A DNA stretch of 64,000 nt, from contig NZ_UAUI01000024.1 in the NCBI RefSeq assembly GCF_900455735.1, positions 62,001-126,000 of the forward strand, written 5' to 3'. The notes under the pieces were generated by a model that worked only from the letters and a program-made list of their open reading frames with translations, was not told the origin of the DNA and searched no databases. This document shows positions 20,684 to 38,670 of this stretch, piece after piece. Numbering within the stretch: the first letter of the stretch is position 1; every line of letters begins with the position of its first letter. The position numbers and the translations under genes are program-made. This DNA comes from Rhodococcus wratislaviensis (GTDB lineage: Bacteria > Actinomycetota > Actinomycetes > Mycobacteriales > Mycobacteriaceae).

Positions 20684-20902
20684 CTAGTCCGGACACATCG
20701 CCGCGAGTTTGAGGGCGCACAACTCGTCGAGCCGGCGTCGGACGCTGTCGTTCACGCCGTGGTGACGTGTGAGGAGACGTTGCAGTTGCCGGTAGAACAC
20801 GGCCGGGAAGACGCCGAACTCGGGCAGAATGTGTTCGTCCCCGCCTCCGAAAGGCGCCCACTTGACCGCGAAGTCGAGCATGGCCAGTTCGTCTTCGGTC
20901 AC
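20684..20902 (-). CDS. small protein resembling DUF3263, in the Rieske oxygenase operon
   Basis: A 72-residue protein. DELAMLDFAVKWAPFGG and VFPAVFYRQLQRLL recall the actinobacterial DUF3263 helical family (pattern: ILxFE...W, then YYQxLNxLI), but the similarity is judged by eye. It starts with GTG after GGAGACGAC, the same leader sequence seen before the Rieske oxygenase gene. It lies 63 bases after the reductase stop on the same strand, so it is probably cotranscribed. A DNA-binding or component-stabilising role is possible; unknown. Confidence 0.6.
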   Translation of the reverse strand: MTEDELAMLDFAVKWAPFGGGDEHILPEFGVFPAVFYRQLQRLLTRHHGVNDSVRRRLDELCALKLAAMCPD

Positions 20903-20965
20903 GTCGTCTCCGTTCTTTCCAGTCCTGATGTACGGGTGTGCAGGACCCCGCCCCGGTGCCCGGCG

Positions 20966-21910
20966 CTACAGGTCGAGGACCAGTCGTGGTCCGATGGCGC
21001 GGGAGACGCAGATCATCATCGACGTGCCTGCCTCCCGTTCGTCGTCGCCGAGGAGAAGGTCGCGGTGGTCGGGCACCCCGTCGAGCACCTTCGTCTCGCA
21101 GGTGCCGCACAGCCCCTCTCCGCAGGAGGTGGGGACGACGACGCCGACGTCGGCCAGCGCGTCAACGATCGACCGGCCCGGCGCCACGGAGCAGACCACG
21201 CCACTGCGTTCGGCGACGACGGTGAACGCGGCCGTCGGCCCGTCGGTGATTGCGCCGGAGAACCGCTCCAGGTGCAGTGACCCCGGGGGCCACGGCTTGC
21301 ACAACTGCTGCACGGCGTCGAGCAGGCCGGTGGGGCCGCAGCAGTAGACCTCGGTGTCCGGCAGAGGTGTGCCCAGCAGCGCGGGCAGGTCGAGGCGCCC
21401 GAGTTCGTCCTCCGGGACCAGCTGGACCCGGTCTCCGTAGCGCTGTAGCTCGCCGGCGAAGGCCATCGAGTCGCGGTTCCGCCCGCCGTAGACGAGCTTC
21501 CACTCGCGTCCTTCCCGCTCGGCTTGTCCGATCATCGCGAGAATCGGCGTGATTCCGATTCCGCCGGCGATGAACAGGGCTCGGTGCCGGGCAGCGAATG
21601 TGAAGTTGTTGCGCGGGCCCCGAACGGCGACCTCGTCGCCGACGCGAAGTCGGGTGTGCACGTGCTCGGAGCCACCGCGGCTCTGCGGCGCGCGCAGCAC
21701 CGCGATCTCGTAGGCCGCATCGTCCCGTGGGTCACCGCACAGCGAGTACTGGCGCACCAACCCGTTCGGCAGCAGCACGTCGATGTGCGCTCCGGGCTCC
21801 CAACCGGGCAGCGGTGTGCGATTGCGACGCTCCAAGCGCACCTGCCGCACACCCGCTGCCAGTGAGACGACGGCGGTGACCTCGAGAGAAAACTCGGAGT
21901 CACTGGTCAT
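20966..21910 (-). CDS. Rieske oxygenase reductase (VanB/CntB-like PDR family)
   Basis: A 314-residue ferredoxin reductase-type protein. The flavin-binding motif VRQYSLCGDP near residue 55 is followed by an NAD-binding region (FIAGGIGITPILAMI and VYCCGPTGLLDAV). The C-terminal plant-type 2Fe-2S domain has PTSCGEGLCGTCETK and a later cysteine-free tail ending in VSRAIGPRLVLDL. This order (flavin, NAD, 2Fe-2S) is that of phthalate-dioxygenase-reductase-like partners such as VanB and CntB. The start overlaps the oxygenase stop by 11 bases, so the two are a functional pair. Confidence 0.9.
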   Translation of the reverse strand: MTSDSEFSLEVTAVVSLAAGVRQVRLERRNRTPLPGWEPGAHIDVLLPNGLVRQYSLCGDPRDDAAYEIAVLRAPQSRGGSEHVHTRLRVGDEVAVRGPRNNFTFAARHRALFIAGGIGITPILAMIGQAEREGREWKLVYGGRNRDSMAFAGELQRYGDRVQLVPEDELGRLDLPALLGTPLPDTEVYCCGPTGLLDAVQQLCKPWPPGSLHLERFSGAITDGPTAAFTVVAERSGVVCSVAPGRSIVDALADVGVVVPTSCGEGLCGTCETKVLDGVPDHRDLLLGDDEREAGTSMMICVSRAIGPRLVLDL

Positions 21911-23102
21911 CGCGGCCGCCGAAGGAGATGGCTTGTGCGATGTCCCAGCGCCCGGTGAGGTAAGCGGAGGCGAGCTGGGCCTGGAAGGCGCGGACGCCGT
22001 CCTCGCGCGCGTCGAAGGGCCCGGGCCGGTAACCGTTGCTCAGCAGGCCCTGGTACACGGACTCGCAGGCCGCGAAGTCCTGGCGGTTGGTGATGTCCCA
22101 GAACCCCGCGGCGTACGAGGGGTCGAAACCCGGACGCTCGGCCACGTGGCGGGGGAACAGCCAGGAGCACTCCACGAATGTCTCACCGGGCGAGAGCGGC
22201 ACCAGACGGTGGGTCATCACGTAGTCCGGCTGCAGGGTGAGCAGCAGATTGGGTGCGAGCATGAAGTAGATCGTGCGTCGGGCCTGCTCGTCGCTGATCC
22301 CGGCGATGCGCTCCCCGCCGCTGCGGCCGTCGAGGCTCATGGTTTCCGCATTCTCGCGCAGCTCCAACGGTCCGCCCAGCCACATACCCGTGTGCCGCAG
22401 GCCCATCGCCGTCTCCGGCGGGCTGACCCGGCAGAGCTCCGGGTGGATCGAGGGGCAGTGGTAGCACTCGAGGTAGTTCTCGATCACCAATTTCCAATTG
22501 GTCTGGAGCGTGTAGCTGTGAGACTCGCCGACGACCATGTCCGTGGGATCCCAGGGGGCGACGACCTCGGTCAGATTGCCGACCCACTCACCGAAGTCGG
22601 GGGCATCGTCGGAGGCGTTGACGAAAATCCAGCCGAACCACTCGACTGCGCGCAACCCGACAAGCGGCCATTCCTCCTTGGCGAAGTTCTCCGTACCGGT
22701 GAACTGAGTCGCGGAGCGGAGGTCACCGTCGAGTTCGTAGACCCACGAGTGGTAGGGGCAGTGCACCACCCTCTTGTTGGTGCACGAGTCCACCGGCAAC
22801 AGCTCGTGCCCCCGGTGCCGGCACGCGTTGTAGAAGGCGTGGATGGCGCCGGCGGCATCGCGGGTCAGCAGGATCCCCTGGGTTCCGACCCGGACGGCGC
22901 GCTGGTCGCCGGGGGTGCCGACGTCGCTGCTGCGTCCCACGCAGACCCAAGCGGCCTCCAGCAGGTGCTTACGCTCCCAGTCGAGGACATCGGGGGACAG
23001 ATACGCTTCGGCCGGAAGCGTCCGTGCGTCGGAAAGTTGTTCCCGGAGCACGTGGTCCAGCGCAGCAGCAGCGAGGGGTGCGGGCGGGAGGGTGGTGGTC
23101 AT
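21900..23102 (-). CDS. Rieske (2Fe-2S) oxygenase alpha subunit, quaternary-ammonium-oxygenase-like
   Basis: A 400-residue terminal oxygenase. The Rieske ligands are Cys94 and His96 (CRHRGH) and Cys115 and His118 (CPYH). The mononuclear iron motif NWKLVIENYLECYHCPSIH gives His215 and His220. The usual bridging Asp is replaced by Glu212, as in choline, glycine betaine and carnitine oxygenases (CMO, GbcA, CntA), which remove or cleave alkyl groups from quaternary ammonium compounds. The first ten codons, the leader and the upstream box are shared with the aldehyde dehydrogenase gene at 29564-31042. Ring hydroxylation is an alternative but less likely role. Confidence 0.9.
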   Translation of the reverse strand: MTTTLPPAPLAAAALDHVLREQLSDARTLPAEAYLSPDVLDWERKHLLEAAWVCVGRSSDVGTPGDQRAVRVGTQGILLTRDAAGAIHAFYNACRHRGHELLPVDSCTNKRVVHCPYHSWVYELDGDLRSATQFTGTENFAKEEWPLVGLRAVEWFGWIFVNASDDAPDFGEWVGNLTEVVAPWDPTDMVVGESHSYTLQTNWKLVIENYLECYHCPSIHPELCRVSPPETAMGLRHTGMWLGGPLELRENAETMSLDGRSGGERIAGISDEQARRTIYFMLAPNLLLTLQPDYVMTHRLVPLSPGETFVECSWLFPRHVAERPGFDPSYAAGFWDITNRQDFAACESVYQGLLSNGYRPGPFDAREDGVRAFQAQLASAYLTGRWDIAQAISFGGRDDQ

Positions 23103-23126
23103 GTCGTCTCCATCGTCGGGAGTGCC

Positions 23127-23216
23127 GGATCAAGTGACAATGAACTTAATCACTAATTCAGCCCGCCAACATATGCGTGTGCACAGTTTGACTAACGCTG
23201 CCTGTGCGTGACCACA
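23127..23216 (-). promoter_or_regulatory. duplicated promoter/operator block, copy A (Rieske operon)
   Basis: The 33 bases 23127-23159 are identical to 31168-31200 upstream of the aldehyde dehydrogenase. They contain a dyad AGTGA-n12-TCACT. The next ~29 bases differ at about five positions and share CATATG and GTGCACAGTT. Similarity fades out near a shared CTGTGCG/CCACA pair. The block lies 25 bases upstream of the Rieske ATG. Two unrelated enzymes behind the same block implies co-regulation. Confidence 0.75.
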
Positions 23217-23217
23217 G

Positions 23218-23973
23218 TCAATGGGTGCTGGATACGTACCGTCTGAGGAGATCGTCGGAGGCCGGCGTCTGGATTCCGAACGCCACCCCGTACGGGTCGG
23301 CGAGGATGGCGAAGGGACCCATTTCCGATTCGGTGGCCGGTACCCGGACCCGCGCGCCGAGGTCGCTCAGGCGGGCGACCTCCGCTTCCAGGTCCAGGAC
23401 TCGCAGGAAGGGGATCCAGTGCGGCGCAACGGCAGACGGCAGGACGTCGAGCATGTCCACTACGCCGGCGCCTGGACGGTCTGCGAACACCAGGAGGCGG
23501 TAGTTGCCCGGGCCGGGCGCCGGCTCGTCGATCACCTGGCAGGACAGGGCCTGGGCGTAATAGGTTGCGGCTTCTTCGGCGAGCGGTGTGTACAGATCGA
23601 CGAAGGCCACGTCCCCCAGTTGCTGACTCGACGGTCGGGGCCCGGTCGGGTCTGTCAGGGCGAACAGTGCCCCGTCGGGTGCGGAGTACACGGGCTGGTG
23701 CCGACCGTCGACGGGCACGGTGCCGGCCGGGCGGGCGCCGAGGTCGAGTGCCCGGCGGCCGGCACCGGCCGGGTCGGTGGTGCTGAAGCAGGGCACCCAG
23801 CATCCGGACGGTGGCGCGGGAACGTCGTCGGCCGGCACGAACGAGATGCGTTGTCCGGGGCTGTCTCCCGCCGGTTCGTGGTTCATGGCGAGGGTGTAGA
23901 AGGCGCGACTGGCCGGTGTGTCACCGCCCACGAAGAGGACGGTGTCGAGGGCGATCTGGGCGTTTCCGGTCAT
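23218..23973 (-). CDS. two-domain VOC-family (glyoxalase/dioxygenase-fold) protein
   Basis: A 251-residue protein with two vicinal-oxygen-chelate repeats. The first runs about residues 8-110 (LDTVLFVGGDTPASRAFYTLAM ... SAPDGALFALTDPTG), the second about 122-240 (FVDLYTPLAEEAATYYAQAL ... ILADPYGVAFGIQ). The arrangement resembles the CFP-30/hydroxylase-type VOC proteins often found beside catabolic genes. Its reaction cannot be assigned. The ATG overlaps the PucR stop in ATGA, so it is translated with the regulator. Confidence 0.75.
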   Translation of the reverse strand: MTGNAQIALDTVLFVGGDTPASRAFYTLAMNHEPAGDSPGQRISFVPADDVPAPPSGCWVPCFSTTDPAGAGRRALDLGARPAGTVPVDGRHQPVYSAPDGALFALTDPTGPRPSSQQLGDVAFVDLYTPLAEEAATYYAQALSCQVIDEPAPGPGNYRLLVFADRPGAGVVDMLDVLPSAVAPHWIPFLRVLDLEAEVARLSDLGARVRVPATESEMGPFAILADPYGVAFGIQTPASDDLLRRYVSSTH

Positions 23974-25118
23974 TCTGGGCCCCGCCCGTCGAGTAGTGAC
24001 GACAGGTCGGCGGCGGAGCCGAGTTCCCAGCCGGTCGTGGCGAGCCAGAAGTGTGTGCGGCTGCTCGGCGAATCGATATCGCGGCCGGTGAGCTCCTCGA
24101 TCAGTTTCAGCCGGTTGCGTAAGGTGTTGCGGTGCACGAATAGTGCCGTCGCAGTCGCGGCCGGTGCGCAGTCCTCGGCCAGGTAGCGGCGGAGCGTGGT
24201 CACGAGCGAGGTGCCGTTCTTCCGGTCGTATTCGAGGAGTGGCGCCAGTGCCTCGGCCGCTAGATCGCCCAGTGGCATCCCGGCCTCGATACTGGCGATC
24301 AGCAGCGCCGTGGCGAGGTCCTGGATCCGGTGCACGTGCACACCGTGGCCCTCGGCCAGGGCGTTGCGCGCCTCGAAATAGCCCAGCCGAAGACCGCGGA
24401 CCCCGACGCGCGCCTTGCTCACCCCCACGCGGGCGTCCGGTCCCAGGCTGGTGAGGTGCTCATGGCACAGTTTGGCCACGAACAGTCCAGCCCCTTCCGG
24501 GACGACCAGGACGACGCGGTCGTGCACGATGGCACGTAGGTGCGGGTCGTGCTGCTGGCTCAGCAGGGTGTGCAAGTTCCACGGGTAGGAGCGGAGCCGT
24601 CGAGGCGGACAAGCCACGGACCCGACGACTACCTCGTGTGCCCTGCCGGCGTCCAAGCCGTGCTCGCCGAGCCGCCGCGCGGCCTCCTGTTCACTGGACT
24701 GACCGGCGATGACGTCCTCCAGTACCTGGCCGAGCAGCTCCCGTCGCCCGCTCAAGACGGCGTGCCGGCGGGACAGCTCGATGCCGGCCAGCGTCGCGGC
24801 GAACGCGAGCAGCGCCGGTGGGATGTCCTGTCCCCGTGCGCACAGCACCGCGACCGGCTCGCCTTCCAGCTCCACCGGCCGGAGCATGCAACCGGCCACC
24901 AGCTCCCCGGACTGGGGAGAGGCGGCAACCAGTTCCTCCGCCGACCACTCCGACCGCGCAGGCACGCTGACCAACACTCCGCCGCGGAGATCGATCACGG
25001 CCACCGGTGCGGCCGAGAGCCCGTGAAGCGCGGTCACCAGCGCATACAGCGGCCGCTCGGCGGTCAGCGCGTCGGCCAGGACCCGATGGTCGGCGAGGTC
25101 AGGGTCGGCCGACGTCAT
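23970..25118 (-). CDS. PucR-family transcriptional regulator
   Basis: A 382-residue regulator. The N-terminal half is a GAF-like or sugar-diacid-type sensor (about residues 30-130). The C-terminal PucR HTH is unmistakable: LLEYDRKNGTSLVTTLRRYLAEDCAPAATATALFVHRNTLRNRL. Such proteins activate purine, proline and amine catabolic genes. The start at 25118 is favoured by AGGA 8 bases upstream; an ATG at 25127 is in frame but lacks a site. It is the best local candidate to bind the duplicated block upstream of the Rieske gene (inference). Confidence 0.85.
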   Translation of the reverse strand: MTSADPDLADHRVLADALTAERPLYALVTALHGLSAAPVAVIDLRGGVLVSVPARSEWSAEELVAASPQSGELVAGCMLRPVELEGEPVAVLCARGQDIPPALLAFAATLAGIELSRRHAVLSGRRELLGQVLEDVIAGQSSEQEAARRLGEHGLDAGRAHEVVVGSVACPPRRLRSYPWNLHTLLSQQHDPHLRAIVHDRVVLVVPEGAGLFVAKLCHEHLTSLGPDARVGVSKARVGVRGLRLGYFEARNALAEGHGVHVHRIQDLATALLIASIEAGMPLGDLAAEALAPLLEYDRKNGTSLVTTLRRYLAEDCAPAATATALFVHRNTLRNRLKLIEELTGRDIDSPSSRTHFWLATTGWELGSAADLSSLLDGRGPE

Positions 25119-25358
25119 AGCGTGCATCCTACGCACGGGCGACGTGGGCCACGCCAGTCGATGTCGGCGCGGAATCGGTGGACGATTCCTCCACGAACCG
25201 CGGAGCCGAACGCGGAAAAGTGCGGGCTACTCGACGTCGACACGATCGCCGCTGCGGTTGAATTCAGAGTGCCGCCGATACCACCGGAGGCGTTGTCCGC
25301 GAAGAATGCGGGCAAGCGCGGCCTCCGCCGGGCACGGGCATGCCGACTTCTCGCTCGT

Positions 25359-26267
25359 TCAACGCGGCTCCATTTCCGAGTTGGCGAGACCCGCGTCGAG
25401 GACGGCCTCGCGCAGGAATCGCAGGACCTTCCGAGTGATTTCCCAGCGCAGCTGGGCGGCAGGCAGGACCGTCCAGTAGTGCCCTGTGTACGTGACCTCC
25501 TCGGGGAGGACCCGGACCAGGGACGGGCGCCTCTGTGCGATGTAGGAGGGCATGACGGCAATCCCCACCCCGGCCAGGGCGGCTTCCTCGTGTACCAGGA
25601 GGTTGTTGGACTGTAATCGGATGATGTTGGGCAGCATCGGCCTGAGAGCCACAAAGTCGGGCACGGCTGCGAGGGGGTCCTCTGCGTACCAGCACAGGAC
25701 GTGCTGTTGCAGGTCCTCGATCCGTCTGATCTCGGCGTGTTCGCGCAGGTAGTCCTCGGTAGCGTAGAGCCCGATCTCGTAGGTGACGAGTTCCTGAATC
25801 CTGACCCGGGAAGACGTGGGTTTGGTGCGGACCACCGCCGCGTCGTAGGACACTCCGTCACGGCTCGCGAGGGAATCCGCGGTCACGATACGCAGGACGA
25901 CCCCGCTCTCGGCGATCAGGCGACCGCAGCGCGGCGCCAGGACTGTCGCCGCGAATCCGTCCGGGGCGAGAATGGTCCATTCCTCCGGGCCCGAGACGAT
26001 CGGGTCGCCGTCCGCGAACACATCGACACCGAGGGAGACCATGCGTGCTGCCGGCAGGAGACCTTCGCCCGTGGGTGTCAGCTTCCACCCAGTCCCACTT
26101 CGGCTGAAGAGTCGAGTGCCGAGCGCTTTCTCCAGTCGACTTATCCGGCGGCTGACGGTTGTGTAGTCGACCCCCAGTTCCTGGCCGGCGCGGACCAGAG
26201 TCTTGGCTTCGGCCACGACGTGGAAGTACTTCACGTCTTCCGCATCCACTCTCAACCGGTCCCTCAT
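25359..26267 (-). CDS. LysR-family transcriptional regulator
   Basis: A 302-residue LTTR with HTH VKYFHVVAEAKTLVRAGQELGVDYTTVSRRISRLEKALG and a substrate-binding-like domain ending in LRWEITRKVLRFL. The residues VDYTTVSRRI instead of the common MTQPAVSRQI place it in the group with A-G-x-x-L-G-V-x-x-x-T-V-S-R-R-I helices. The ATG at 26267 was chosen because the HTH begins about 10 residues later. It precedes no gene directly (240-base gap to PucR) and follows the permease; likely an amine-responsive regulator of the island. Confidence 0.85.
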   Translation of the reverse strand: MRDRLRVDAEDVKYFHVVAEAKTLVRAGQELGVDYTTVSRRISRLEKALGTRLFSRSGTGWKLTPTGEGLLPAARMVSLGVDVFADGDPIVSGPEEWTILAPDGFAATVLAPRCGRLIAESGVVLRIVTADSLASRDGVSYDAAVVRTKPTSSRVRIQELVTYEIGLYATEDYLREHAEIRRIEDLQQHVLCWYAEDPLAAVPDFVALRPMLPNIIRLQSNNLLVHEEAALAGVGIAVMPSYIAQRRPSLVRVLPEEVTYTGHYWTVLPAAQLRWEITRKVLRFLREAVLDAGLANSEMEPR

Positions 26268-26334
26268 TCTGCTCTCACTTCGATGCGTCCCCGACTGTCG
26301 GCGCAACCTGCCGGTCATCGTCCTCGCAGGGTCC

Positions 26335-27870
26335 TCACAGAGGTTCCTTCTCGAGTTCACTCGGCGTCGTCGAGTCACGGTTCGTCGAGTGGGTGGGAGA
26401 GGAATGCATCTGCCGCATCTCGTGCTCGAGGGCGATGGCGTCGGCGCCCTGGGGCATCGCCGGAGCGGGAAGTCGCCACAGCATGGGAAGTTTGTCCTGG
26501 ACCACGCGCCGATACGCATACAGCACGACCGAGAACAGCAGGACGGCCACCGCGATCACAGACTCCCGGGCGCCGCCGTAGCCCAGCAGTTCGGGATTCA
26601 GGACACCGATCGCGGTGATGAAGACGTTGAACGCCACCAGGACTGCCACGACGGGAATCCACGCGCGGTGTCGTCTGATCGGCCGCGGCCAGTTGGGTCG
26701 GTCCCTGCGCAGCAATATGAAAGCCGACAGTCCCAGGATGATCGACAGCAGGTAGCCGAGGTTGCTCGCCAGCAAGATGCTCACCGGGTGGCCCACCAGG
26801 ACCATGACGGTCGCGTTGAGGAGCACGTCCAGGGTCAGGGACCGGCCAGGCACACCCCACCGGTTGACCCAGTCGAGTTGCTTGATGGTCATGCCTTCCT
26901 GCGCAAGCCCGAACAGCGCGCGGCCCCCGTCGGCGGTCGTGGAGATGATAGAGATCAGCAGGGCCGACGCGATCACGATCGTTCCGATCCAGGCCGCGCC
27001 GCCGAACGCCTGCTCGAATGCCACGGCGACATAGTTCACCGGGTTGTCTCGGACCACGCCTTCTCCGAGACCACCCGCGAGGGCGGTCGGGACGACGACG
27101 AACAGCACGATCATGAACAGCGAAATGCGCGACATGGCCTTCGACGTATCGCGGGCGGTGTCCTTGTATTCGGGTGCGAACGAAGCAACGATCTCGCCCG
27201 CGTAGATCGTCCACGCGGTCACGTAGAACACGACAGCGACTGTTCGCCAGTCGCCGGCGACCGACCAGGACAAGTTGGCCGTCGACCAATGGATCGACGG
27301 GCTGACCAGGCACGCCACCGTTATGACGGCTAGACCTGCGACAACCAGCAGTCCGAGCACCTTGTTGACCGTGGCGCCGAACTTCAAGCCGAAGTAGTTG
27401 AAGGCCCAGGCGAACAGCATGGCACCGAGAGCGAAGAGGTGCTCGAGCCCGAGGTGGTTGCCGAAGATGCCGAAGGCGAGGGTGTTGTCCTGGAACCAGG
27501 TCGCCTCGATCAATTCTCCGAAGACGACCGAGGCCATGGAGATGGACAGTGACCAACCGAGCCAGTAGCCGAACGCGGCGATGGCTCCGAGTGGGGCGAA
27601 GTACTTCTTCCAGCCCTCGATGGCATAGCGTGCGACTCCTCCGGAGTCGCGGGGGAACATCGCCGCCATCTCCGCGAAGACCTGGCATTGCAGGAAGCTG
27701 ATCACCGCTCCGATGAACCAGACGGTAATTGCGGTCCAGGCGCCGACGACGCCGAGAAGGTAGCCGAATGTCACGAACAACCCAACTGGCAGGGTCAGCG
27801 CCATGGCCATGCCATCGCGCCAGGTGAGCTTCTTGGCGAGTCTTCGATGGTCCATGCTGTCTTCGGTCAT
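26335..27870 (-). CDS. APC-family amino acid/amine permease, copy 1
   Basis: A 511-residue protein with about twelve TM segments. LTWRDGMAMALTLPVGLFVTFGYLLG and the TM1 break typical of the APC superfamily are present, then MFPRDSGGVARYAIEGWKKYFAPLGAIAAFGYW and late TTADGGRALFGLAQEGM. By eye about 90 percent of residues are identical to the permease at 36350-37897, up to the last EMR, after which the tails differ. AAGGACGAG precedes the ATG at 27870. Expected to import an amino acid or amine used by the island. Confidence 0.88.
   Translation of the reverse strand: MTEDSMDHRRLAKKLTWRDGMAMALTLPVGLFVTFGYLLGVVGAWTAITVWFIGAVISFLQCQVFAEMAAMFPRDSGGVARYAIEGWKKYFAPLGAIAAFGYWLGWSLSISMASVVFGELIEATWFQDNTLAFGIFGNHLGLEHLFALGAMLFAWAFNYFGLKFGATVNKVLGLLVVAGLAVITVACLVSPSIHWSTANLSWSVAGDWRTVAVVFYVTAWTIYAGEIVASFAPEYKDTARDTSKAMSRISLFMIVLFVVVPTALAGGLGEGVVRDNPVNYVAVAFEQAFGGAAWIGTIVIASALLISIISTTADGGRALFGLAQEGMTIKQLDWVNRWGVPGRSLTLDVLLNATVMVLVGHPVSILLASNLGYLLSIILGLSAFILLRRDRPNWPRPIRRHRAWIPVVAVLVAFNVFITAIGVLNPELLGYGGARESVIAVAVLLFSVVLYAYRRVVQDKLPMLWRLPAPAMPQGADAIALEHEMRQMHSSPTHSTNRDSTTPSELEKEPL
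26413..27840 (-). repeat. permease duplication, copy 1 (inverted relative to 36380-37804)
   Basis: Nucleotide and protein similarity to 36380-37804 is very high over about 1.43 kb and drops sharply at the C-terminal tails. The copies are in opposite orientation about 8.5 kb apart, so recombination between them would invert the segment with the amine oxidase, aldehyde dehydrogenase, aldolase and oxidoreductase genes. Confidence 0.8.
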
Positions 27871-27955
27871 GTCTCGTCCTTCGTTTTATTGTCCCCCGGT
27901 TGATAGGTCGATGCGATCGCCTGGATCGGACCATCTGGTGACCTGTATGGGCAGC

Positions 27956-27994
27956 AGGGCCGGGACGGCAGGCCGCCGCCGGCGTCCCGGCCCT
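27956..27994 (-). terminator. terminator after the flavin amine oxidase gene
   Basis: Perfect 12-bp arms AGGGCCGGGACG (27956-27967) and CGTCCCGGCCCT (27983-27994) with a 15-base GC-rich loop, in the 198-base gap between the amine oxidase stop and the permease start. It separates two same-strand genes, so the permease probably has its own promoter. Confidence 0.7.
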
Positions 27995-28068
27995 TTCATG
28001 CCCAGGCCTTCACCCCTGACTGCGCGTCCATCCGAGTCGCGCGAAAGTGGTACAGACCGTGACCGGGG

Positions 28069-29400: not shown

Positions 29401-29563
29401 GTCCTCATCCACTGATAGAAAGAATGTGTTTATCGGTGACAAACCGATGTGGTCGCCTTCGGAACGAAGTCAAGTCCCGGGATCGGGGACTACTGTCCTC
29501 CGGTTGTCTCGCTCGGCCCTCGAATATGCGCTCCCTCTTTCGCTCCCTCTTTTCACGAAAGCT

Positions 29564-31042: not shown

Positions 31043-31167
31043 GTCGTCGTCTCCATCGTGGGGGAGGGATCTGCCATTCAGGGGCATCGTCGGCCGCACC
31101 TGGATCGTCGGATGCGGAGTGCGCAGCACCGGCGGACCGTCGATAGGTGAAGGTGATCTGCTCGGCT

Positions 31168-31257
31168 GGATCAAGTGACAATGAACTTAATCACTAATTC
31201 GACCCGACAACATATGCTCGTGCACAGTTCGGAACGAACATTCTGTGCGCAGCCACA
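31168..31257 (-). promoter_or_regulatory. duplicated promoter/operator block, copy B (aldehyde dehydrogenase)
   Basis: Copy of the block at 23127-23216, with 33 identical bases at 31168-31200 including the AGTGA-n12-TCACT dyad and a shared downstream CATATG and GTGCACAGTT. Here about 105 bases of unmatched sequence separate it from a second shared patch (31013-31059) that covers the leader and first codons. The block lies in a 376-base gap (31043-31418) between the divergent dehydrogenase and aldolase genes, so it may serve both directions. Confidence 0.75.
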
Positions 31258-31418
31258 CTCGGGTGGCGCGAGATGAGTGCCGCGCGAAGTGGCGGACCCG
31301 GAACCCATCTCTGACCTGCGATGTCTGCACGAATGCATATCGCCGTGCAGGACTGTCCCTTGTTCGGCAACCGCGCTCGTTCCTACCTTTCTTCCAACCG
31401 CAGCAGAAAGGGAACATC

Positions 31419-32363
31419 ATGGTCCAGAGCGACTCAGTCTCGTCAGTGCGTGGTCTGATTCCAGCCCACCTCACTCCGATGTCGAGGGGCGGAGCGATTC
31501 ACTGGGATGCACTCACCACTCACCTCCGGTGGCTGGCGGCAATACCGGGAGTCGAGTGGATCACCACCACTGCCCACGCCTCGGAGGTCGCGACCCTGAC
31601 CACCGAGGAACGGCAGCGGATGATCGAGCATGCCGTCTCCGTGGTTCCGGAATCCATTGGTGTGGTTGCCGGCGTCTACGACGACGGCAGCGCCCGGGCC
31701 GCTGCCGAGGCGCGACGTTCGGTCGAGTCCGGAGCGAAGGCGCTCTTGGTGTTCCCCTCGGGAGTCTTCGCCGGAGGGTCGCAGCGGCGCTCGGAATCCC
31801 AACGCTCCCACTATGAAGCGGTCGCTGAAGCCGTGGACGTGCCCCTGATCATCTTCAAGTATCCGGTCGGCAACCCTCTCACGCTGCCGCTCGAGACCAC
31901 GCTGGAAATCTGTCAGACCATCCCGACCGTGGCGGCCATCAAGGAGTGGTCCTACGACATCGTCGAGTACGAGGACACGTGGCGGGCGATCAAGGCCGAC
32001 GCTCCCCACGTTTCGGTCCTGAGCAGCTTCAGCCGCGCCCTCTTTGCATCCCTTCTGGTGGGCAGCGACGGTGTGCTGAGTGGTCACGGCAGTATCGTCG
32101 CGGATCTGCAGAGTGAACTCCTTGCCGCAATGCAAGAGGGAGACCTGACCGGTGCGCGGAAGGCCTGGGATCGCATCTACCCCCTCGCCGTTGCCTGCTA
32201 CGCCGATCCCTTCTTCGATCAGCACAATCGGATGAAGGCGGCCCTGGGCATCCTGGGTCGAATCCCGCGCGACGCCACATATGTGCGGCGCCCCTTGGTG
32301 GAGGTCGACGACGCCGAGCTCGCCACACTCGAGGCTGCCTGCGTCAGCGCTGGGCTCGTGTAA
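31419..32363 (+). CDS. dihydrodipicolinate synthase-family aldolase/lyase
   Basis: A 314-residue TIM-barrel protein of the DHDPS/NAL superfamily. The Schiff-base lysine is in TVAAIKEWSYD and the tyrosine candidate in LIIFKYPVGN (standard YN replaced by KYPVG). The family cleaves or forms C-C bonds next to a keto group. Here the usual Thr-Thr pair is seen as ITTTAHASE. It may cleave a keto acid derived from the amine substrate. AGAAAGGGA precedes the ATG at 31419. It heads a plus-strand set with the OYE-type oxidoreductase 5 bases downstream. Confidence 0.8.
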   Translation: MVQSDSVSSVRGLIPAHLTPMSRGGAIHWDALTTHLRWLAAIPGVEWITTTAHASEVATLTTEERQRMIEHAVSVVPESIGVVAGVYDDGSARAAAEARRSVESGAKALLVFPSGVFAGGSQRRSESQRSHYEAVAEAVDVPLIIFKYPVGNPLTLPLETTLEICQTIPTVAAIKEWSYDIVEYEDTWRAIKADAPHVSVLSSFSRALFASLLVGSDGVLSGHGSIVADLQSELLAAMQEGDLTGARKAWDRIYPLAVACYADPFFDQHNRMKAALGILGRIPRDATYVRRPLVEVDDAELATLEAACVSAGLV

Positions 32364-32368
32364 CGGCT

Positions 32369-34048
32369 ATGTCCTACGTCCACCTCTTCAGTCCGAGCGC
32401 GATCGGCGGCGTCGAGATCCGTAACCGAGTCGTGTTGCCCAGCATGACCACTCGGCTGGCCACACCCTCCGGAGAGGTCACGCCGGAGCTCGTGAGCTAC
32501 TACCAGGAGCGGGCCAGGGGTGGCTGCGGTCTCGTAATCGTGGAGATGGCCTCGCCGCAGCGTCGCGGTCGGCACCGAGGGCGCGAGCTGGGCATCGACT
32601 CGGACGAGTACATACCCGGGTTGCGCTCCCTCGTTGCAGCCATCCACGAGCAAGGGGCCCGGGCCGGCATCCAACTCGGTCACGGCGGAGCGCGGGCGCT
32701 CCCGACGGAACTCGGTGGGCGCCCCCTTGCCGCGACCGCGGGGCCGGTGCCGGTGTTCGAGACGGCCCGCTTCGTGAACTTTCCCGAGCTCTTCGACGAG
32801 GACTCGCTGGAGCAGCTCGTGGTCGATCACGTCGACGCGGCAAGACGGGCTGAGGAGGCAGGGTTCGACGTGGTCGAGCTTCACGGCGCCCATGGGTACC
32901 TGCTGGCGCAGCTGATCAGCGCCGACGAGAATCGGGTGCTGCCGGACGCCGCGGCCCGGTACGACTTCCTCGCGTCATTGGTGCGCCGCATCGTCGACGC
33001 CGTCGGAATTCCCCTGAGCTATCGCCTCAGCGGTCAGGACTACTACTCGGCCGGACAAACCGTGGACGACTCGCTCGCGTTCCTTCCCTACCTGGAGGAC
33101 GCCGGCGTCTCCGCCGTCTCGGTGACCGGCGGGCACTACAAGTCCGTCGATCCCGAGATCATGATTCCGCCGATGCCGTACGAGGACGGCGTATTCCTCG
33201 ACGCGGCCCGGATGGTCAAGGCGCGCACGCGCCTGCCCGTCATCGCGGTCGGGCGGGTGAACACCCCGGCCGTGGCCGAGGACGCGCTCGCACAGGGGTG
33301 GGCGGACTTCGTCGCCGTGGGGCGCGGCCAGATCGCCGATCCCCACTGGGCGCGCAAGACGCAGCAACAGCAGCAAGTGCGAGAGTGCTTGGCGTGCAAT
33401 CACTGTGTGCGGACCATGCGCTCGGGTAAACAGCTGGCCTGCGCGGTGAACCCCACCGTGACGACCACCGACCGGCCTGCCGCTGGAACCGCTGCGCAGC
33501 GTCGACTCGTGTTCGGTGCCGGGCCTGCCGGCCTGACCTACGCAGTCGAATCGGCACGAGCGGGACACGAGGTGTATGTCATTGCACGGGACCGCACCTG
33601 GAAGGCGGCGGCAGCGCCCACCTTCAACGGCTACCGGCCTGATCGACAGCGGATGCACCGCTACTTCGACGGACTGTGGAAGGAGGCCGTCGACGCCGGC
33701 GTTCACATCGCCCCGGAGGGGGAGCGGGAACCACCGCCCGAATGGCGTACCGACATCGACGTCGTCGCCGACGCCAGGGGCGCCACCTACGTGGGCAACC
33801 TCGGTCCTCTCGTCCGCATCCTCATCCGAGTCCTGTCCCGCGTACCCCTGCCGAAGCGGCTGATGAAGAGCGACTGGCTCCACCACATATTGCTCTACGA
33901 CCTGCGCAACCCCCGGAGCAAGGAGCCGATCCGCATTCCGGGAGCTCGCACCATCAAGATCGGCGACGCGGCACAGCCGGGCGAGCTGGCCGCCGCCGTG
34001 CACGACGCATACATCCACGCTTGGAAGGAAGACAATGATGACCAGTAA
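32369..34048 (+). CDS. FMN/4Fe-4S oxidoreductase, OYE/trimethylamine-dehydrogenase class, lacking the NAD domain
   Basis: A 559-residue protein. The N-terminal OYE barrel is about residues 1-335 (LPSMTTRLAT, IQLGHGGA, ELHGAHGYLLAQ). The 4Fe-4S cysteines are in ECLACNHCVRTMRSGKQLAC followed by VNP. An FAD/ADP-binding start LVFGAGPAGLTYAVESARAGHEV follows at about 375. The family enzymes are 650-730 residues; here the central second Rossmann (NAD) domain is missing, while the last FAD strand (TIKIGDAAQPGELAAAVHDAYIHA) remains. Relatives include dimethylglycine, N-methylproline and trimethylamine demethylases and dienoyl-CoA reductases. N-demethylation is favoured by context. The start has no strong site and overlaps closely with upstream and downstream genes. 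Confidence 0.82.
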   Translation: MSYVHLFSPSAIGGVEIRNRVVLPSMTTRLATPSGEVTPELVSYYQERARGGCGLVIVEMASPQRRGRHRGRELGIDSDEYIPGLRSLVAAIHEQGARAGIQLGHGGARALPTELGGRPLAATAGPVPVFETARFVNFPELFDEDSLEQLVVDHVDAARRAEEAGFDVVELHGAHGYLLAQLISADENRVLPDAAARYDFLASLVRRIVDAVGIPLSYRLSGQDYYSAGQTVDDSLAFLPYLEDAGVSAVSVTGGHYKSVDPEIMIPPMPYEDGVFLDAARMVKARTRLPVIAVGRVNTPAVAEDALAQGWADFVAVGRGQIADPHWARKTQQQQQVRECLACNHCVRTMRSGKQLACAVNPTVTTTDRPAAGTAAQRRLVFGAGPAGLTYAVESARAGHEVYVIARDRTWKAAAAPTFNGYRPDRQRMHRYFDGLWKEAVDAGVHIAPEGEREPPPEWRTDIDVVADARGATYVGNLGPLVRILIRVLSRVPLPKRLMKSDWLHHILLYDLRNPRSKEPIRIPGARTIKIGDAAQPGELAAAVHDAYIHAWKEDNDDQ

Positions 34049-34790
34049 CCCGATGCGGTGCATCGTCACCGGGGGCAGCCAAGGCATCGGCGAGGCCATC
34101 GTCGAGAAACTCCTGTCAGATGGAGCTGCTGTCGCCGTAATCGACCGGCAGGAACCCACTGCCCGGCTGAAGGGCCGGGTAGCGTTCGCCGAGTGCGACG
34201 TGAGCGATTCCGCTGCTATGGAGGCTGCAGCTGCGGCACTGACAGATGCATTGGGAGGGCCACCCGACACGGTGGTCGCAAATGCAGGCAGGTGTGTATC
34301 CGGTCGGTTGGCGAGCGACCCGGTCGACAACCTCGTCAACCACTTTCAGATCAACACCGTGGGGGTGCTCAACACGTTCCGTCCCCACATCTCCCCTATG
34401 CGCGCCGAAGGGGGCGGGTCGCTGATCGCGATCACCTCGAACTGTGCGCACAAGCCCCGCCTCGACCTCGGCGCCTACTGCGCCACCAAGGCCGCCACCA
34501 AGATGATGGTCGAATGCCTCGCACTCGAGCTCGCAGCTGACGGAATCCGCGTGAATGCTGTCGCTCCGGGGTCCTGTGACACCGAGATGCAGCGTCGTCA
34601 GTGGGAGGAGCTCGGTGTCCCGAAGGATCGACAGGTCGTCGGCGACCTGACGTCCTATCGATCCGGCATCCCGGCGGGCAGGCTGGCGGCGCCACACGAC
34701 ATCGCACAGGCTGTCGGCTTCCTGGCCTCACCGGCTGCCGAGTTCATGCGTGGTGTGACGTTGGTCGTCGACGGCGCGCAGTCACTCTGA
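34035..34790 (+). CDS. SDR-family oxidoreductase
   Basis: A 251-residue classical short-chain dehydrogenase. Cofactor motif TGGSQGIGEA at about residue 12, NAG in VVANAGR, and the active-site segment SNCAHKPRLDLGAYCATKAA giving Tyr and Lys. The C-terminus MRGVTLVVDGAQSL is typical. It starts 14 bases inside the end of the oxidoreductase gene, so translation is coupled. It probably oxidises an alcohol or reduces a ketone of the amine pathway; substrate unknown. Confidence 0.87.
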   Translation: MMTSNPMRCIVTGGSQGIGEAIVEKLLSDGAAVAVIDRQEPTARLKGRVAFAECDVSDSAAMEAAAAALTDALGGPPDTVVANAGRCVSGRLASDPVDNLVNHFQINTVGVLNTFRPHISPMRAEGGGSLIAITSNCAHKPRLDLGAYCATKAATKMMVECLALELAADGIRVNAVAPGSCDTEMQRRQWEELGVPKDRQVVGDLTSYRSGIPAGRLAAPHDIAQAVGFLASPAAEFMRGVTLVVDGAQSL

Positions 34791-34980
34791 TCCGACAAGA
34801 CGACGACGCGCACCATCGATCGTCCTCGCCACCACGATCACGCCCACCGGCCGGAACCGACCGCGAGCAACCCACGTCTCCACACGGGGGATTGCTATCC
34901 CCTGCCGGGAACTCCGGCGCCCAGGGAACCACCGAGTGCACCCGGAAACGGGTCCTCCCTACATCCTCGGAGAGTTCGTC

Positions 34981-36291
34981 ATGACCGACACCCAGGACCC
35001 CACGGCGAACTCCGTGGCCGCGTCGCAACGCGGGACGGCCTCCCCGCCGTCCACCCGCAGGGCGATGCTCGGCCTCGGCCTCGGCAACACCCTCGAGTGG
35101 TACGACTGGATGGTCTTCGGTCTCCTCGCCGCGTTCATCGGGCCGCAGTTCTTTCCATCGCAGGACCCGATGTCGTCCACCCTCGACGCGCTGGCCGTCT
35201 TCGCGGTCGGGTTCTGCGTCCGGCCGCTGGGCGGGGTCCTGCTCGGTAACGTCGCCGACCGCGTCGGCCGTCGCCAGGTGATGCTCTGGTCGGTCGGCAT
35301 CATGGCGGTCACCACCCTGAGCATCGCGCTGCTGCCGTCCTACGACTCGATCGGCGTCTGGGCCGGAATCCTGCTGCTGGCATGCCGGCTGCTACAGGGC
35401 CTGTCCACCGGTATCGAGGCGCCGCTGTCCACGGCGTACGCCGTGGAGCTGATGCCGGCCGGACACGAAGGCCGGGCGGCCGGCTACATCAGCTTCTTCC
35501 AGAACTTCGGCATCCTGCTCGCCTCATTGGTCAGCTTCGCGACCAGCTACGTCATCGGGGGCGACGCCATGTCGACGTGGGGCTGGCGGGTCCCGATGCT
35601 GGTCGGCGCCGCGATGAGCTTCTTCGTGCTCTACCTGCGGCGTGCTCTCCCCGAGACGCTGTCGGAGGAGGAGAAGTCCGAACACACGTCGGGCACGTGG
35701 GAGGGCGTCCGACGGCATTGGCTCGGCCTGGCCGCGATCATCTTCGTCGTCGGCGCCGCGCAGGCCTACAACTACGCGTGGAACGTCGGCCTGCCCAGCG
35801 TGGCCCGCGGCGCCTACGGCGAGAACCCGACCACGATCTTCGCCGTCACCAGCGTGCTCGGTGTGATCATGCTGGTCGGGTCGATCGTCACCGGCCGGAT
35901 CGCTGATCGGGTGCGCCTGTCCCGCGCATTCGTGGTCACCCGTCTCGCGGTCGTCCCCGTCATCTTCCTGATGCTGCTGTACGCCGGCCCTGGCTTGCGC
36001 ACCTTCACCGTGGTCCTGCTGCTCGGCGGAGTACTGCTGGCGGCGAACATGACGCTCTACAACGTCGTGTCCACGTCGCTGATGCCCAAGTACTGCCGGG
36101 CGACCGGCACCGGGCTGGGCTACGGTGTCGCCGTCGCCGCCTTCGGTGGCACCGCGTCCTATCTGATCGTCTGGCTGCAGAGCCGTAACTTGTTGTGGGC
36201 CTTCCCCGTCTACACCGCGCTTCTGTCGGTCATCAGCGCTGTCCTGTACGTCGCGGCCCGTCGCCACAGCGGCACATTCGCCGGAGATTGA
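34981..36291 (+). CDS. MFS transporter, metabolite:H+ symporter (MHS) family
   Basis: A 436-residue 12-TM transporter. GLGLGNTLEWYDWMVFGLLAAFIGPQFFP is the MHS signature, followed by ADRVGRRQVM. MHS members import small carboxylates, betaines (for example proline betaine, ectoine) and shikimate. A betaine or amino-acid-like substrate would agree with the island. GGAGAG lies upstream of the ATG at 34981. There is a 190-base gap from the SDR gene with no clear signal. Confidence 0.87.
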   Translation: MTDTQDPTANSVAASQRGTASPPSTRRAMLGLGLGNTLEWYDWMVFGLLAAFIGPQFFPSQDPMSSTLDALAVFAVGFCVRPLGGVLLGNVADRVGRRQVMLWSVGIMAVTTLSIALLPSYDSIGVWAGILLLACRLLQGLSTGIEAPLSTAYAVELMPAGHEGRAAGYISFFQNFGILLASLVSFATSYVIGGDAMSTWGWRVPMLVGAAMSFFVLYLRRALPETLSEEEKSEHTSGTWEGVRRHWLGLAAIIFVVGAAQAYNYAWNVGLPSVARGAYGENPTTIFAVTSVLGVIMLVGSIVTGRIADRVRLSRAFVVTRLAVVPVIFLMLLYAGPGLRTFTVVLLLGGVLLAANMTLYNVVSTSLMPKYCRATGTGLGYGVAVAAFGGTASYLIVWLQSRNLLWAFPVYTALLSVISAVLYVAARRHSGTFAGD

Positions 36292-36349
36292 CCACCGACG
36301 CGATGAACACGAGGACCCTCGGCAATCCGGGCTACGAAGGAGCACAACG

Positions 36350-37897
36350 ATGAGCGACAGCATCGACCAACATGTACTCGCCAAGACACTGACCTGGCGC
36401 GATGGCATTGCCCTCGGGCTTGCCCTACCTACCGGGTTGTTCGTGACATTCGGCTACCTTCTCGGCGTCGTCGGTGCCTGGGTTGCAATCGCGGTCTGGT
36501 TCTCCGGGGCTGTCATCAGCTATCTCCAGTGCCGGGTCTTCGCGGAGATGGCATCAATGTTTCCGCGCGACTCCGGGGGAGTAGCGCGCTATGCCATCGA
36601 GGGCTGGAAGAAGTACTTCGCCCCGCTCGGAGCCATCGCCGCGTTCGGCTACTGGATTGGTTGGTCTCTGACCATCTCGATGGCGGCGGTCGTGTTCGGA
36701 GAATTGATCGAGGCGACCTGGTTCCAGGACAACACTCTCGACTTCGGCATCTTCGGCAACCACCTCGGGCTCGAGCACCTCTTCGCTCTCGGTGCCATGC
36801 TGTTCGCCTGGGCCTTCAACTACTTCGGCTTGAAGTTCGGTGCCGCGGTCAACAAGGTGCTCGGACTGCTGGTTGTCGTGGGTTTGACCGTGGTGTCGGT
36901 GGCGTGCCTGGTGAGCCCGTCGATCGATTGGTCGACGGCCAACTTGTCCTGGTCGGTCGCCGGCGACTGGCGAACGGTCGCTGTCGTGTTCTACGTGACC
37001 GCGTGGGCAGTCTATGCAGGGGAGATCGTTGCTTCGTTCGCACCCGAGTACAAGGACACCGCCCGCGACACTTCCAGGGCCATGTCGCGCATTTCGTTGT
37101 TCATGATCGTGTTGTTCGTCGTCGTCCCGACTGCTCTTTCGGGTGGTCTCGGCGAGGAAACGATCCGAGACAACCCGGTGAACTATGTCGCCGTGGCGTT
37201 CGGCCAGGCGTTCGGCGGCGCCTCGTGGATCGGAACGATCGTGATCGCGTTCTCGCTTCTGGTGGGAATGATTTCCACGACTGCGGACGGGGGCCGCGCG
37301 CTGTTTGGGCTTGCGCAGGAAGGCATGACCATCAAGCAACTCGACTGGGTCAACCGGTGGGGTGTGCCTGGCCGGTCCCTGACCCTGGACGTGCTCCTCA
37401 ACGCGACCGTCATGCTCTTGGTGGGCCACCCGGTGAGTATCTTGCTGGCGAGCAACCTCGGCTACCTGCTGTCGATCATCCTGGGTCTGTCGGCATTCAT
37501 ATTGCTGCGCAGGGACCGACCGAACTGGCCGCGGCCGATTCGGCGGAGCAATGGCTGGATTCCTGTCGTGGCAGTCCTGGTGGCGTTCAACGTCTTCATC
37601 ACCGTGATCGGTGTTCTGAATCCCGAACTGCTGGGCTACGGCGGCGCCCGGGAGTCTGTGATCGCGGTGGCCATTCTGTTGTTCTCGGTCGTGCTGTATG
37701 CGTATCGGCGCGTGGTCCAGGACAAACTTCCCATGCTGTGGCGACTTCCCGCTCCGGCGATGCCTCAGGGCGCCGACGCGCTCGCCCTCGAGTTCGAAAT
37801 GCGTGCGACCACGGGTCCCCCGACCGTCCACGACGTGCACGACGAGAACGATGCGGCCGGCCGACGCCGAATTCATCCAAGCGAGGAAAGGAAGTAA
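36350..37897 (+). CDS. APC-family amino acid/amine permease, copy 2
   Basis: A 515-residue permease nearly identical to that at 26335-27870 along ~480 residues, with differences mainly in TM1, TM6-7 and the tail. It shares LTWRDG, MFPRDSGGVARYAIEGWKKYFAPLGA and TTADGGRALFGLAQEGM. The two may differ in substrate or timing. GAAGGAG precedes the ATG at 36350. The SDR gene follows after two bases, so the two are one transcript. Confidence 0.88.
   Translation: MSDSIDQHVLAKTLTWRDGIALGLALPTGLFVTFGYLLGVVGAWVAIAVWFSGAVISYLQCRVFAEMASMFPRDSGGVARYAIEGWKKYFAPLGAIAAFGYWIGWSLTISMAAVVFGELIEATWFQDNTLDFGIFGNHLGLEHLFALGAMLFAWAFNYFGLKFGAAVNKVLGLLVVVGLTVVSVACLVSPSIDWSTANLSWSVAGDWRTVAVVFYVTAWAVYAGEIVASFAPEYKDTARDTSRAMSRISLFMIVLFVVVPTALSGGLGEETIRDNPVNYVAVAFGQAFGGASWIGTIVIAFSLLVGMISTTADGGRALFGLAQEGMTIKQLDWVNRWGVPGRSLTLDVLLNATVMLLVGHPVSILLASNLGYLLSIILGLSAFILLRRDRPNWPRPIRRSNGWIPVVAVLVAFNVFITVIGVLNPELLGYGGARESVIAVAILLFSVVLYAYRRVVQDKLPMLWRLPAPAMPQGADALALEFEMRATTGPPTVHDVHDENDAAGRRRIHPSEERK
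36380..37804 (+). repeat. permease duplication, copy 2 (inverted relative to 26413-27840)
   Basis: About 1.43 kb of very similar sequence in opposite orientation to the first copy. The two copies bracket the catabolic core at 27.9-36.3 kb. Confidence 0.8.
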
Positions 37898-37899
37898 TT

Positions 37900-38670
37900 G
37901 TGAACAACTCGGAAACCGGTGTGGACCGCCGCGTTATCGTCACCGGCGGTACCAAGGGGATCGGTTACGCCTGCGCAGAGTTATTTGCACGGCGGGGCTG
38001 CCAGGTGCTGATCTGCTCGCGCAATAAAGCCCAGGTCGAGGCGGTGGCCGCGGAGTTGAACCAGCACAACGGTCAAGTTGCCGGAATGGCAGCCGATCTG
38101 GCGGATCGGGACGTGGGTGACAGCATTGTCGGTCGGTGCATCGACCTCTTCGGTGGGGTCGATTATCTTGTCAATAATGCCGGCGTCTATGAGCCGATCG
38201 CCATGGTTGACATGACGGCCGAGGGATGGGACGCCAGTTTGCACAACAACTTGCGTGGAGCGGCACTCACCTCTGCCGCGGCGGCGCGTTCCATGCGGTC
38301 CACCGGCGGCGGATCGATCGTCAACATCGCCTCGGTCAACGGGCTGGCGGCCGAAGCCAACTTCGCGCCCTACAACGCCTCGAAAGCCGGACTGATATCT
38401 CTGACGCAGACCAGCGCCATCGAGTGGGCCGATGACAACATCAGGGTCAATTGTGTTGCGCCCGGCTGCATACGAACATCGATGGTTGATCCGTTGGTCT
38501 CCGACCTATCCGATGAGGTCATCGCACGGTACGTACCGATGCGCCGACTCGGTTTGCCGGAGGAGATCGCATCGGTGGTGGCCTTCCTCGTCTCCGACGA
38601 CGCTAGCTACATCACGGGGCAGACCATCACCGTCGACGGCGGCACACTGACCCGCCAGCCGATGCTGTGA
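37900..38670 (+). CDS. SDR-family oxidoreductase
   Basis: A 256-residue classical SDR: VTGGTKGIGYACAELF at about residue 13, VNNAGVYEP, the Tyr-Lys pair in APYNASKAGLISL, and ITGQTITVDGG near the end, as in FabG-type enzymes. It starts with GTG after GAGGAAAGGAAG, two bases past the permease stop. Codon use is less GC-rich than average here (for example TTATTT, AATAAT), suggesting transfer. It likely acts on the permease substrate or its product. Confidence 0.87.
   Translation: MNNSETGVDRRVIVTGGTKGIGYACAELFARRGCQVLICSRNKAQVEAVAAELNQHNGQVAGMAADLADRDVGDSIVGRCIDLFGGVDYLVNNAGVYEPIAMVDMTAEGWDASLHNNLRGAALTSAAAARSMRSTGGGSIVNIASVNGLAAEANFAPYNASKAGLISLTQTSAIEWADDNIRVNCVAPGCIRTSMVDPLVSDLSDEVIARYVPMRRLGLPEEIASVVAFLVSDDASYITGQTITVDGGTLTRQPML

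Follow-up and report, generated by a model that had tools for sequence, protein, structure and literature searches.

What do the genes of a compact cluster in Rhodococcus wratislaviensis degrade, and do they belong together? The window analysed here is the whole stretch of 64,000 nt at positions 62,001 to 126,000 of contig NZ_UAUI01000024.1, and all coordinates refer to it. A sequence-only reading had proposed that 20684–38670 holds an island for the degradation of an N-methylated amine. We found that this block recurs in three other Rhodococcus genomes between different flanks and that two of its operons are preceded by copies of the same promoter-like DNA. We favour, at a probability of about 0.5, a two-branch catabolic island in which an amine branch would feed an acid branch.

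A discrete block of genes in four Rhodococcus genomes

ORF calling (ORF, open reading frame) and family scans gave 14 family-assignable genes and one 72-aa ORF between 20684 and 38670. Nine minus-strand ORFs, from the 72-aa ORF to an aldehyde dehydrogenase (ALDH), are followed by six divergent plus-strand genes, from a DHDPS-like lyase to the second of two short-chain dehydrogenases (SDR1 and SDR2; Table 1). All enzyme classes named by the sequence-only reading are present, and we add to them a VOC protein and the 72-aa ORF. NCBIfam comparisons cover the families listed for each protein (up to 25); among these, SDR2 alone exceeds any cut-off, that of a generic SDR subfamily model, and therefore the functional names used here are classes, not identities. 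The start codon of SDR2 is not fixed, position 37897 itself being ATT.

The source genome measures 7.78 Mb, and the nearest named relatives for the island are R. koreensis and R. jostii. By tblastn, the same 14 assigned genes lie in the same order, with 80–97% protein identity, in R. koreensis (L015), in genome G011 (L016) and in R. jostii (L017 and the adjoining stretch L051); the 72-aa ORF is 76, 74 and 84% identical in L015, L016 and L017, respectively. Similarity at the DNA level begins at 20702 in L015 and L016 and at 20662 in L017, and ends at 38670 in the first two, while in R. jostii it runs to 37816 in L017 and continues to 38666 in L051. As this similarity spans the whole block, the grouping of the genes is not due to chance, and the limits first proposed for the island closely match those of the conserved block.

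The ∼10-kb flanks are mutually unlike, with three exceptions: the right flanks of L015 and L016 are alike over 7.2 kb, their left flanks over 0.13 kb directly beside the block, and the right flanks of the window and R. jostii over 0.3 kb. In a further Rhodococcus genome (G005) the left flank (to 20589) and the right flank (from 38696) of the window are 17.5 kb apart with different DNA between them. Blastn found nothing in this intervening DNA that matches the window, protein-level matches were limited to SDR and LysR at ∼30% identity, and G005 gave no match to the flavin amine oxidase (MAO) of the island at E up to 1e-100. MAO orthologs (at about 95% or higher) and Rieske orthologs (at 93% or higher) coincide in four of 28 genomes of the genus (own included); the remaining 24 lack both, their other matches reaching only 42–45% and 37–38%. 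In the large groups, genomes were drawn evenly and ∼3–6 first-look candidates were scored per genome. On this scale, the search for MAO (E up to 1e-140) in 394 genomes of the class hit the own genome only, and the Rieske search in 295 genomes from the genus of G045 (taken as Streptomyces) was empty and is uninformative. Plasmid searches yielded nothing beyond homologs below 60%, a repeat search turned up no direct repeats inside the left or the right island end, and there is no tRNA in the 64-kb window. Since the species are close relatives, the changed flanks are a stronger argument than conservation. With its constant gene order between different flanks the block is, judged by sequence, one discrete catabolic island, as had been proposed.

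Copies of the same promoter-like DNA precede two operons

We then compared 15 upstream regions with each other (E up to 1e-4). The match between the Rieske and ALDH regions was the sole non-coding one; the other match, LysR with SDR2, is by our reading the 3′ end of a duplicated permease. The Rieske and ALDH regions align over 65 bp at 91% identity and then over 51 columns at 86% that span the start and the first codons. The N-termini are alike as well (MTTAPPPAPL in ALDH, MTTTLPPAPL in the Rieske protein), and because this leader is shared with the Rieske gene, we placed the ALDH start at 31042. A 17-bp core, TAGTGATTAAGTTCATT, has two copies in the window. Allowing up to 2 mismatches, it occurs exactly 2 times in the 7.8-Mb genome, while the reversed-pattern control gave 0 hits; exact copies are found twice each in L015 and L016 and once in L017. 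In both copies, a dyad (TGTGG-N4-GCACAG) lies 46 bases upstream of the core, with 2 occurrences in the window versus 0.02 expected. A looser form of the dyad has two occurrences each in L015, L016 and L017, plus one in L051 that lies beyond the block. A two-element operator pattern with its correct spacing of 15 bases matched both promoter-like copies and nothing else in the window. The plus-strand operon is without this shared DNA. Scans for sigma-70 promoters and terminators gave results at or below chance.

Possible traces of a larger duplication are present elsewhere. In R. jostii, broken copies of the PucR and VOC genes, with an internal deletion and frameshifts, lie between ALDH and DHDPS (L017:12242-12973), just upstream of the ALDH promoter-like DNA. 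A contig of a metagenome-assembled genome (MAG; L018:951-1637) also has broken PucR and VOC sequences between ALDH and DHDPS, likewise just upstream of this DNA, as separate pieces. The simplest history that these sequences suggest is that a PucR-VOC-promoter segment was duplicated and captured the ALDH-MAO-permease operon, and that the second PucR and VOC were then lost. We infer that the repeated DNA is a promoter and that both operons are probably under the PucR-type regulator. Because this DNA was duplicated before both operons, their joint induction is predicted: the Rieske and ALDH-MAO-permease operons would be switched on together. The duplicated DNA is the one strongly testable feature of the island, and this prediction, with a bounded gene set at different chromosomal sites, makes an orphan amine pathway testable in laboratory strains of Rhodococcus. 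The island also suggests a way in which catabolic operons may be recruited, by copying of a regulator-promoter segment and later loss of the regulator copy.

A proposed amine branch: Rieske oxygenase, amine oxidase and aldehyde dehydrogenase

The Rieske protein has both the Rieske 2Fe-2S motif and the catalytic domain (Pfam Rieske and Ring_hydroxyl_A above gathering scores). Its nearest solved structures are 3vca/4qup, which we take to be the stachydrine demethylase Stc2, and 6y8j, carnitine monooxygenase. Its ECYHC motif aligns with 3vca/4qup and CntA and comprises the bridging Glu and a Cys-x-x-Cys pair next to the mononuclear iron; by this motif, the protein appears to be of Group V (quaternary-ammonium) type. 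According to one study, a bridging Glu with Cys-x-x-Cys is a Group V feature, the Cys pair being present in some members only (PMC10952381). The island thus resembles Stc2, CntA and GbcA in these residues, and it also has an adjacent gene for a reductase with a plant-type ferredoxin domain. Unlike GbcA, however, the Rieske protein stays under the cut-off of the GbcA equivalog model (200.5 bits versus 670), and the reductase scores 79 bits against the GbcB model (cut-off 500). Elsewhere in the genome (G000, contig C10, 343600-363599, L057), a second Rieske gene that is GbcA-like (208 bits) adjoins a BCCT transporter; genes for a GcvT-fused oxidase and a formyltetrahydrofolate deformylase are close by, and the set is likely a glycine betaine route. 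As the genome has this separate GbcA-like Rieske-BCCT set, glycine betaine is unlikely to be the substrate of the island.

The best solved-structure match of MAO is 7u6l (384 bits), Pnao of Pseudomonas putida S16, and MAO retains the Trp/Phe aromatic cage of Pnao with equal spacing (GTW...GFIDGA). A study of Pnao describes the residue roles, including that of the Trp/Phe cage, and gives the products as an aldehyde and methylamine, with the electrons passing to cytochrome c (PMC9396064). Unlike in the Pnao system, family scans recognised no gene for a cytochrome c partner among the island genes. The ALDH gene next to MAO fits oxidation of such an aldehyde, and the island is like the Pnao system both in the cage and in having an ALDH gene alongside. 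As to transport, the sequence-only reading had counted three amine- or betaine-type transporters. Three are indeed present, but two of them are near-duplicate APC permeases and the third is an MHS/MFS symporter. The two permease genes have opposite orientation, with 86% protein and 90% DNA identity, and both copies also occur in the relatives; against the model for trimethylamine N-oxide (TMAO) permease they score weakly (167 and 166 bits for permeases 1 and 2, cut-off 690).

A proposed acid branch: a shortened OYE-type flavoenzyme and a DHDPS-like lyase

The FMN enzyme had been described as a trimethylamine dehydrogenase (TMADH)-class oxidoreductase, an assignment that the comparisons do not support. 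Against PDB chains it reaches 166 bits with ene-reductases, 159 with 2,4-dienoyl-CoA reductase and 104.6 with TMADH; in NCBIfam, BaiCD and the mycofactocin OYE are the best families, all below cut-off. It shares an FMN barrel, 4Fe-4S-type cysteines and a following nucleotide-binding motif with TMADH and with dimethylglycine-demethylase-type flavoproteins such as DgcA. In contrast to TMADH, it is closer by score to ene-reductase and FadH structures, and it is shorter (559 residues versus 729 for TMADH and 671 for FadH among the chains listed). Its conserved cysteine set is FadH-like (CxxCxxC-x11-C), and the protein ends after a short C-terminal part that contains the nucleotide-binding motif GAGPAGL. 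In TMADH, Cys30 carries the 6-S-cysteinyl FMN; the PSMTTRL stretch of the island enzyme, as seen without alignment to TMADH itself, has no Cys. The AlphaFold model of this enzyme had a mean predicted local distance difference test score (pLDDT) of 59.8 and was set aside. Scores and the gene neighbourhoods described below both disfavour a TMADH-type N-demethylase. In two hits on Rhodococcus plasmids (H30 and H32), the OYE-like match falls under annotations as shikimate dehydrogenase and FAD-dependent oxidoreductase and may reflect a fusion.

DapA has the motif GTTGE and the catalytic Tyr of YNxP. In the island protein, AHASE replaces GTTGE and Phe replaces this Tyr, while the Schiff-base Lys and the TIM-barrel fold of the DHDPS/N-acetylneuraminate lyase (NAL) superfamily are kept. 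Five aligned members of the subfamily all have HASE for TTGE (AHASE in 4, GHASE in 1) and Phe for the Tyr, and so differ from the superfamily at both sites. The structural model (pLDDT 81.6) identified in a fold search only the general superfamily, with DapA, NAL and aldolase close in Z. Because of the retained Lys, the HASE and Phe replacements and the superfamily fold of the model, we read the protein as a probable Schiff-base lyase or dehydratase.

The DHDPS-OYE pair also occurs in Ornithinimicrobium cavernae (L021), in a Kiloniellales MAG (L022, 40–41%) and in G628 (L029, 40–50%). In L021, DHDPS, OYE, SDR1 and LysR have orthologs at 65–72% (LysR 70%, beside the acid module), with a TRAP transporter, a FAD_binding_2 protein and a crotonase-like ORF nearby. 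The neighbours are a sugar-type ABC transporter, FAD_binding_2 and CoA-transferase III in L022, and TRAP, crotonase, CoA-transferase III and acyl-CoA dehydrogenase in L029. Thus, outside Rhodococcus the OYE-DHDPS pair is linked to acid-catabolism genes. This marks a pair of a HASEV-type DHDPS-like lyase and a short OYE in actinobacteria and in one alphaproteobacterial MAG. The pairing is not universal, because the DHDPS-like member on Delftia plasmid pLME1, one of the five aligned, adjoins a MaoC-type gene and has no OYE in view. The match in G198 is another OYE, with no DHDPS match within 20 kb. In the Ornithinimicrobium stretch (L021:15372-18682), the interval from the TRAP transporter to the LysR ortholog also contains an ALDH and a second DapA-like gene. 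Finally, MAO and OYE orthologs at 70–79% come from entries whose longest contig has the identical size in three pairs (15346, 17785 and 5150 bases), which suggests that the MAO and OYE branches also travel together outside these Rhodococcus, presumably on the same contig.

A proposed two-branch pathway and its alternatives

How could these enzymes act together? In the two-branch reading, an N-methylated amine would be imported by an APC permease, and the Group V Rieske oxygenase with its reductase would take off an N-methyl group using O2 and NADH. The Pnao-like flavoenzyme would convert the secondary amine to an aldehyde and methylamine or ammonia, and ALDH would oxidise the aldehyde to an acid. 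Both minus-strand operons would be read from copies of one promoter, probably via the PucR-type regulator. In the acid branch, which would comprise the MHS symporter, the OYE-type flavoenzyme, the SDRs, the DHDPS-like Schiff-base lyase and the LysR regulator, the acid would be either produced in the cell or taken up as such, then undergo dehydrogenation or reduction, and finally be split into central metabolites. Of the N-demethylation, deamination, oxidation and cleavage proposed earlier, the amine part fits the ECYHC Rieske protein, the Pnao-like MAO and ALDH, while the TMADH-like step is doubtful and a single pathway is unproven. The island combines known enzyme classes in a new arrangement, and no matching cluster or pathway was found in the parts of the open-access literature consulted. 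A more specific version has, in our estimate, somewhat less than even odds: an undescribed N-methylated-amine pathway in which the HASEV-type DHDPS-like subfamily and the domain-shortened OYE degrade the acid from the Rieske-MAO-ALDH steps, the amine arm having been wired in by the PucR-VOC-promoter duplication.

Several observations weigh against the two-branch reading. Synteny and co-occurrence rest on closely related species, so that conservation alone is a weak argument. At the promoter-like DNA, the R. jostii ALDH copy of the core carries one mismatch and the promoter scan found no sigma-70-like site. Among the NCBIfam families listed, no equivalog model is matched above its cut-off by any of the enzymes, and no step could be assigned to the VOC protein, the 72-aa ORF or SDR2. 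A gap of two residues in MAO falls at the site of Ser372 in Pnao (residues numbered by hand), and therefore the substrate of MAO probably differs from that of Pnao. The gap also disfavours nicotine or pseudooxynicotine as substrate, though other nicotine genes were not searched for. Only 5 of 120 listed Rieske homologs have 70% identity or more (R. koreensis, two Streptomyces and two others). The named close homologs of the Rieske protein outside Rhodococcus are the two Streptomyces (83% and 71%), and those of MAO are one other Streptomyces, an Arthrobacter and a Paenarthrobacter. As none of the 5 close Rieske entries shares its longest-contig size with a MAO or OYE ortholog entry, the Rieske arm may be a later addition, and what ties it to MAO is synteny in Rhodococcus together with the shared promoter-like DNA.

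The stretches of ∼20 kb in L021, L022 and L029 have no MAO or Rieske match, and this bears on whether the block could instead hold two unrelated adjacent pathways, one for an amine (Rieske, MAO, ALDH and APC) and one for an acid (MHS, OYE, SDR and DHDPS), that share no carbon. The DHDPS-OYE-SDR-LysR set without MAO in Ornithinimicrobium and the plus-strand operon without the shared promoter-like DNA would both suit such a pair. However, the block is held together in four Rhodococcus genomes, own included, and the equal longest contigs of the three further MAO/OYE entry pairs suggest linkage, so that we regard two separate pathways as unlikely. The same Rieske protein could also hydroxylate or O-demethylate an aromatic amine or acid, the island then degrading an aryl-alkylamine. 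SDR1 scores best with DhbA-type dihydrodiol dehydrogenases, if below the cut-off (202 bits versus 300), and many Group V homologs bear generic names with no known substrate. Yet among the island genes there is neither a beta subunit nor an assigned ring-cleavage dioxygenase (the VOC protein could be one), and the ECYHC motif and the nearest structures belong to the quaternary-ammonium group; we consider this route improbable. Least probable in our view is a route like that of hydroxyproline or proline betaine, in which the Rieske protein and then the OYE-type enzyme would remove N-methyl groups, the DHDPS-type enzyme would deaminate a pyrroline and ALDH would oxidise the semialdehyde. A Rieske enzyme reportedly takes part in the betaine route (compare the proline-betaine pathway of Kumar), the nearest Rieske structures are presumably those of a stachydrine demethylase, and six of the listed OYE homologs at 40–43% are named 'dimethylglycine catabolism A' by the Joint Genome Institute (JGI). 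In a study on 4-hydroxyproline catabolism, DHDPS- and ALDH-superfamily enzymes serve the route, and the cluster includes the epimerase 4HypE and a DAAO-superfamily oxidase (PMC4113996). The island has proteins of the first two superfamilies, but neither a proline-racemase-superfamily epimerase nor a DAAO-type hydroxyproline oxidase was recognised among its genes, which include MAO, MHS and APC instead, and on these grounds we rejected hydroxyproline betaine as substrate. Moreover, such a route has no place for the Pnao-like MAO, and in the three stretches named above the OYE-DHDPS pair is unaccompanied by any Rieske or MAO match.

Features and neighbours of the island

Table 1. Coordinates of the island genes and of the putative promoter/operator copies in the window
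Feature	Position	Strand	Remarks
72-aa ORF, left end of conserved block	20684-20902	-	no Pfam match
Rieske reductase (FAD/NAD/plant-type 2Fe-2S)	20966-21910	-	Pfam Fer2 and NAD_binding_1 above cut-off; overlaps Rieske gene
Rieske non-heme iron oxygenase, Group V by motif	21900-23102	-	Pfam Rieske and Ring_hydroxyl_A
Promoter/operator copy 1 (putative), upstream of Rieske operon	23139-23216	-	core 23139-23155, dyad 23202-23216
VOC/glyoxalase-like protein	23218-23973	-	Pfam Glyoxalase_6
PucR-type regulator	23970-25136	-	Pfam HTH_30 and GGDEF_2
LysR-type regulator	25359-26267	-	Pfam HTH_1 and LysR_substrate
APC-family permease 1	26335-27870	-	AA_permease_2
Flavin amine oxidase (MAO), pseudooxynicotine-dehydrogenase-like	28069-29442	-	Amino_oxidase; best solved structure 7u6l
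Aldehyde dehydrogenase (ALDH), 492 aa	29564-31042	-	Aldedh; start placed by shared leader
Promoter/operator copy 2 (putative), upstream of ALDH-MAO-permease operon	31180-31257	-	core 31180-31196, dyad 31243-31257
DHDPS-superfamily lyase	31419-32363 (first Met)	+	Pfam DHDPS
OYE/2,4-dienoyl-CoA-reductase-like FMN oxidoreductase	32369-34048	+	Oxidored_FMN
Short-chain dehydrogenase 1 (SDR1)	34035-34790	+	adh_short_C2
MHS-family metabolite:H+ symporter	34936-36291	+	MFS_1; TIGR00883 277 bits versus cut-off 443
APC-family permease 2	36350-37897	+	AA_permease_2
Short-chain dehydrogenase 2 (SDR2), right end	about 37897-38670	+	adh_short_C2; kept in L015, L016 and L051

The upstream neighbours of the island (13751-19049 and 19145-20047) read as a glucarate-type cluster with MFS, ALDH, 5-dehydro-4-deoxyglucarate dehydratase, a glucarate-dehydratase-like enolase and LysR. 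The 5-dehydro-4-deoxyglucarate dehydratase exceeds the NF002958 subfamily cut-off and is under that of KdgD. Window positions 17778-20534 are kept at 93–95% in island-free Rhodococcus, e.g. G005, G008 and G009. In the right flank (38721-41329), a pair of solute-binding and membrane proteins belongs to a set that is present in multiple homologous copies in some Rhodococcus genomes, with 7 matches in the own genome. Beyond the right end of the island, the DNA of R. koreensis and G011 (L048 and L050) resembles window positions 797-4480 at 73–75%, a segment that sits about 16 kb from the island.

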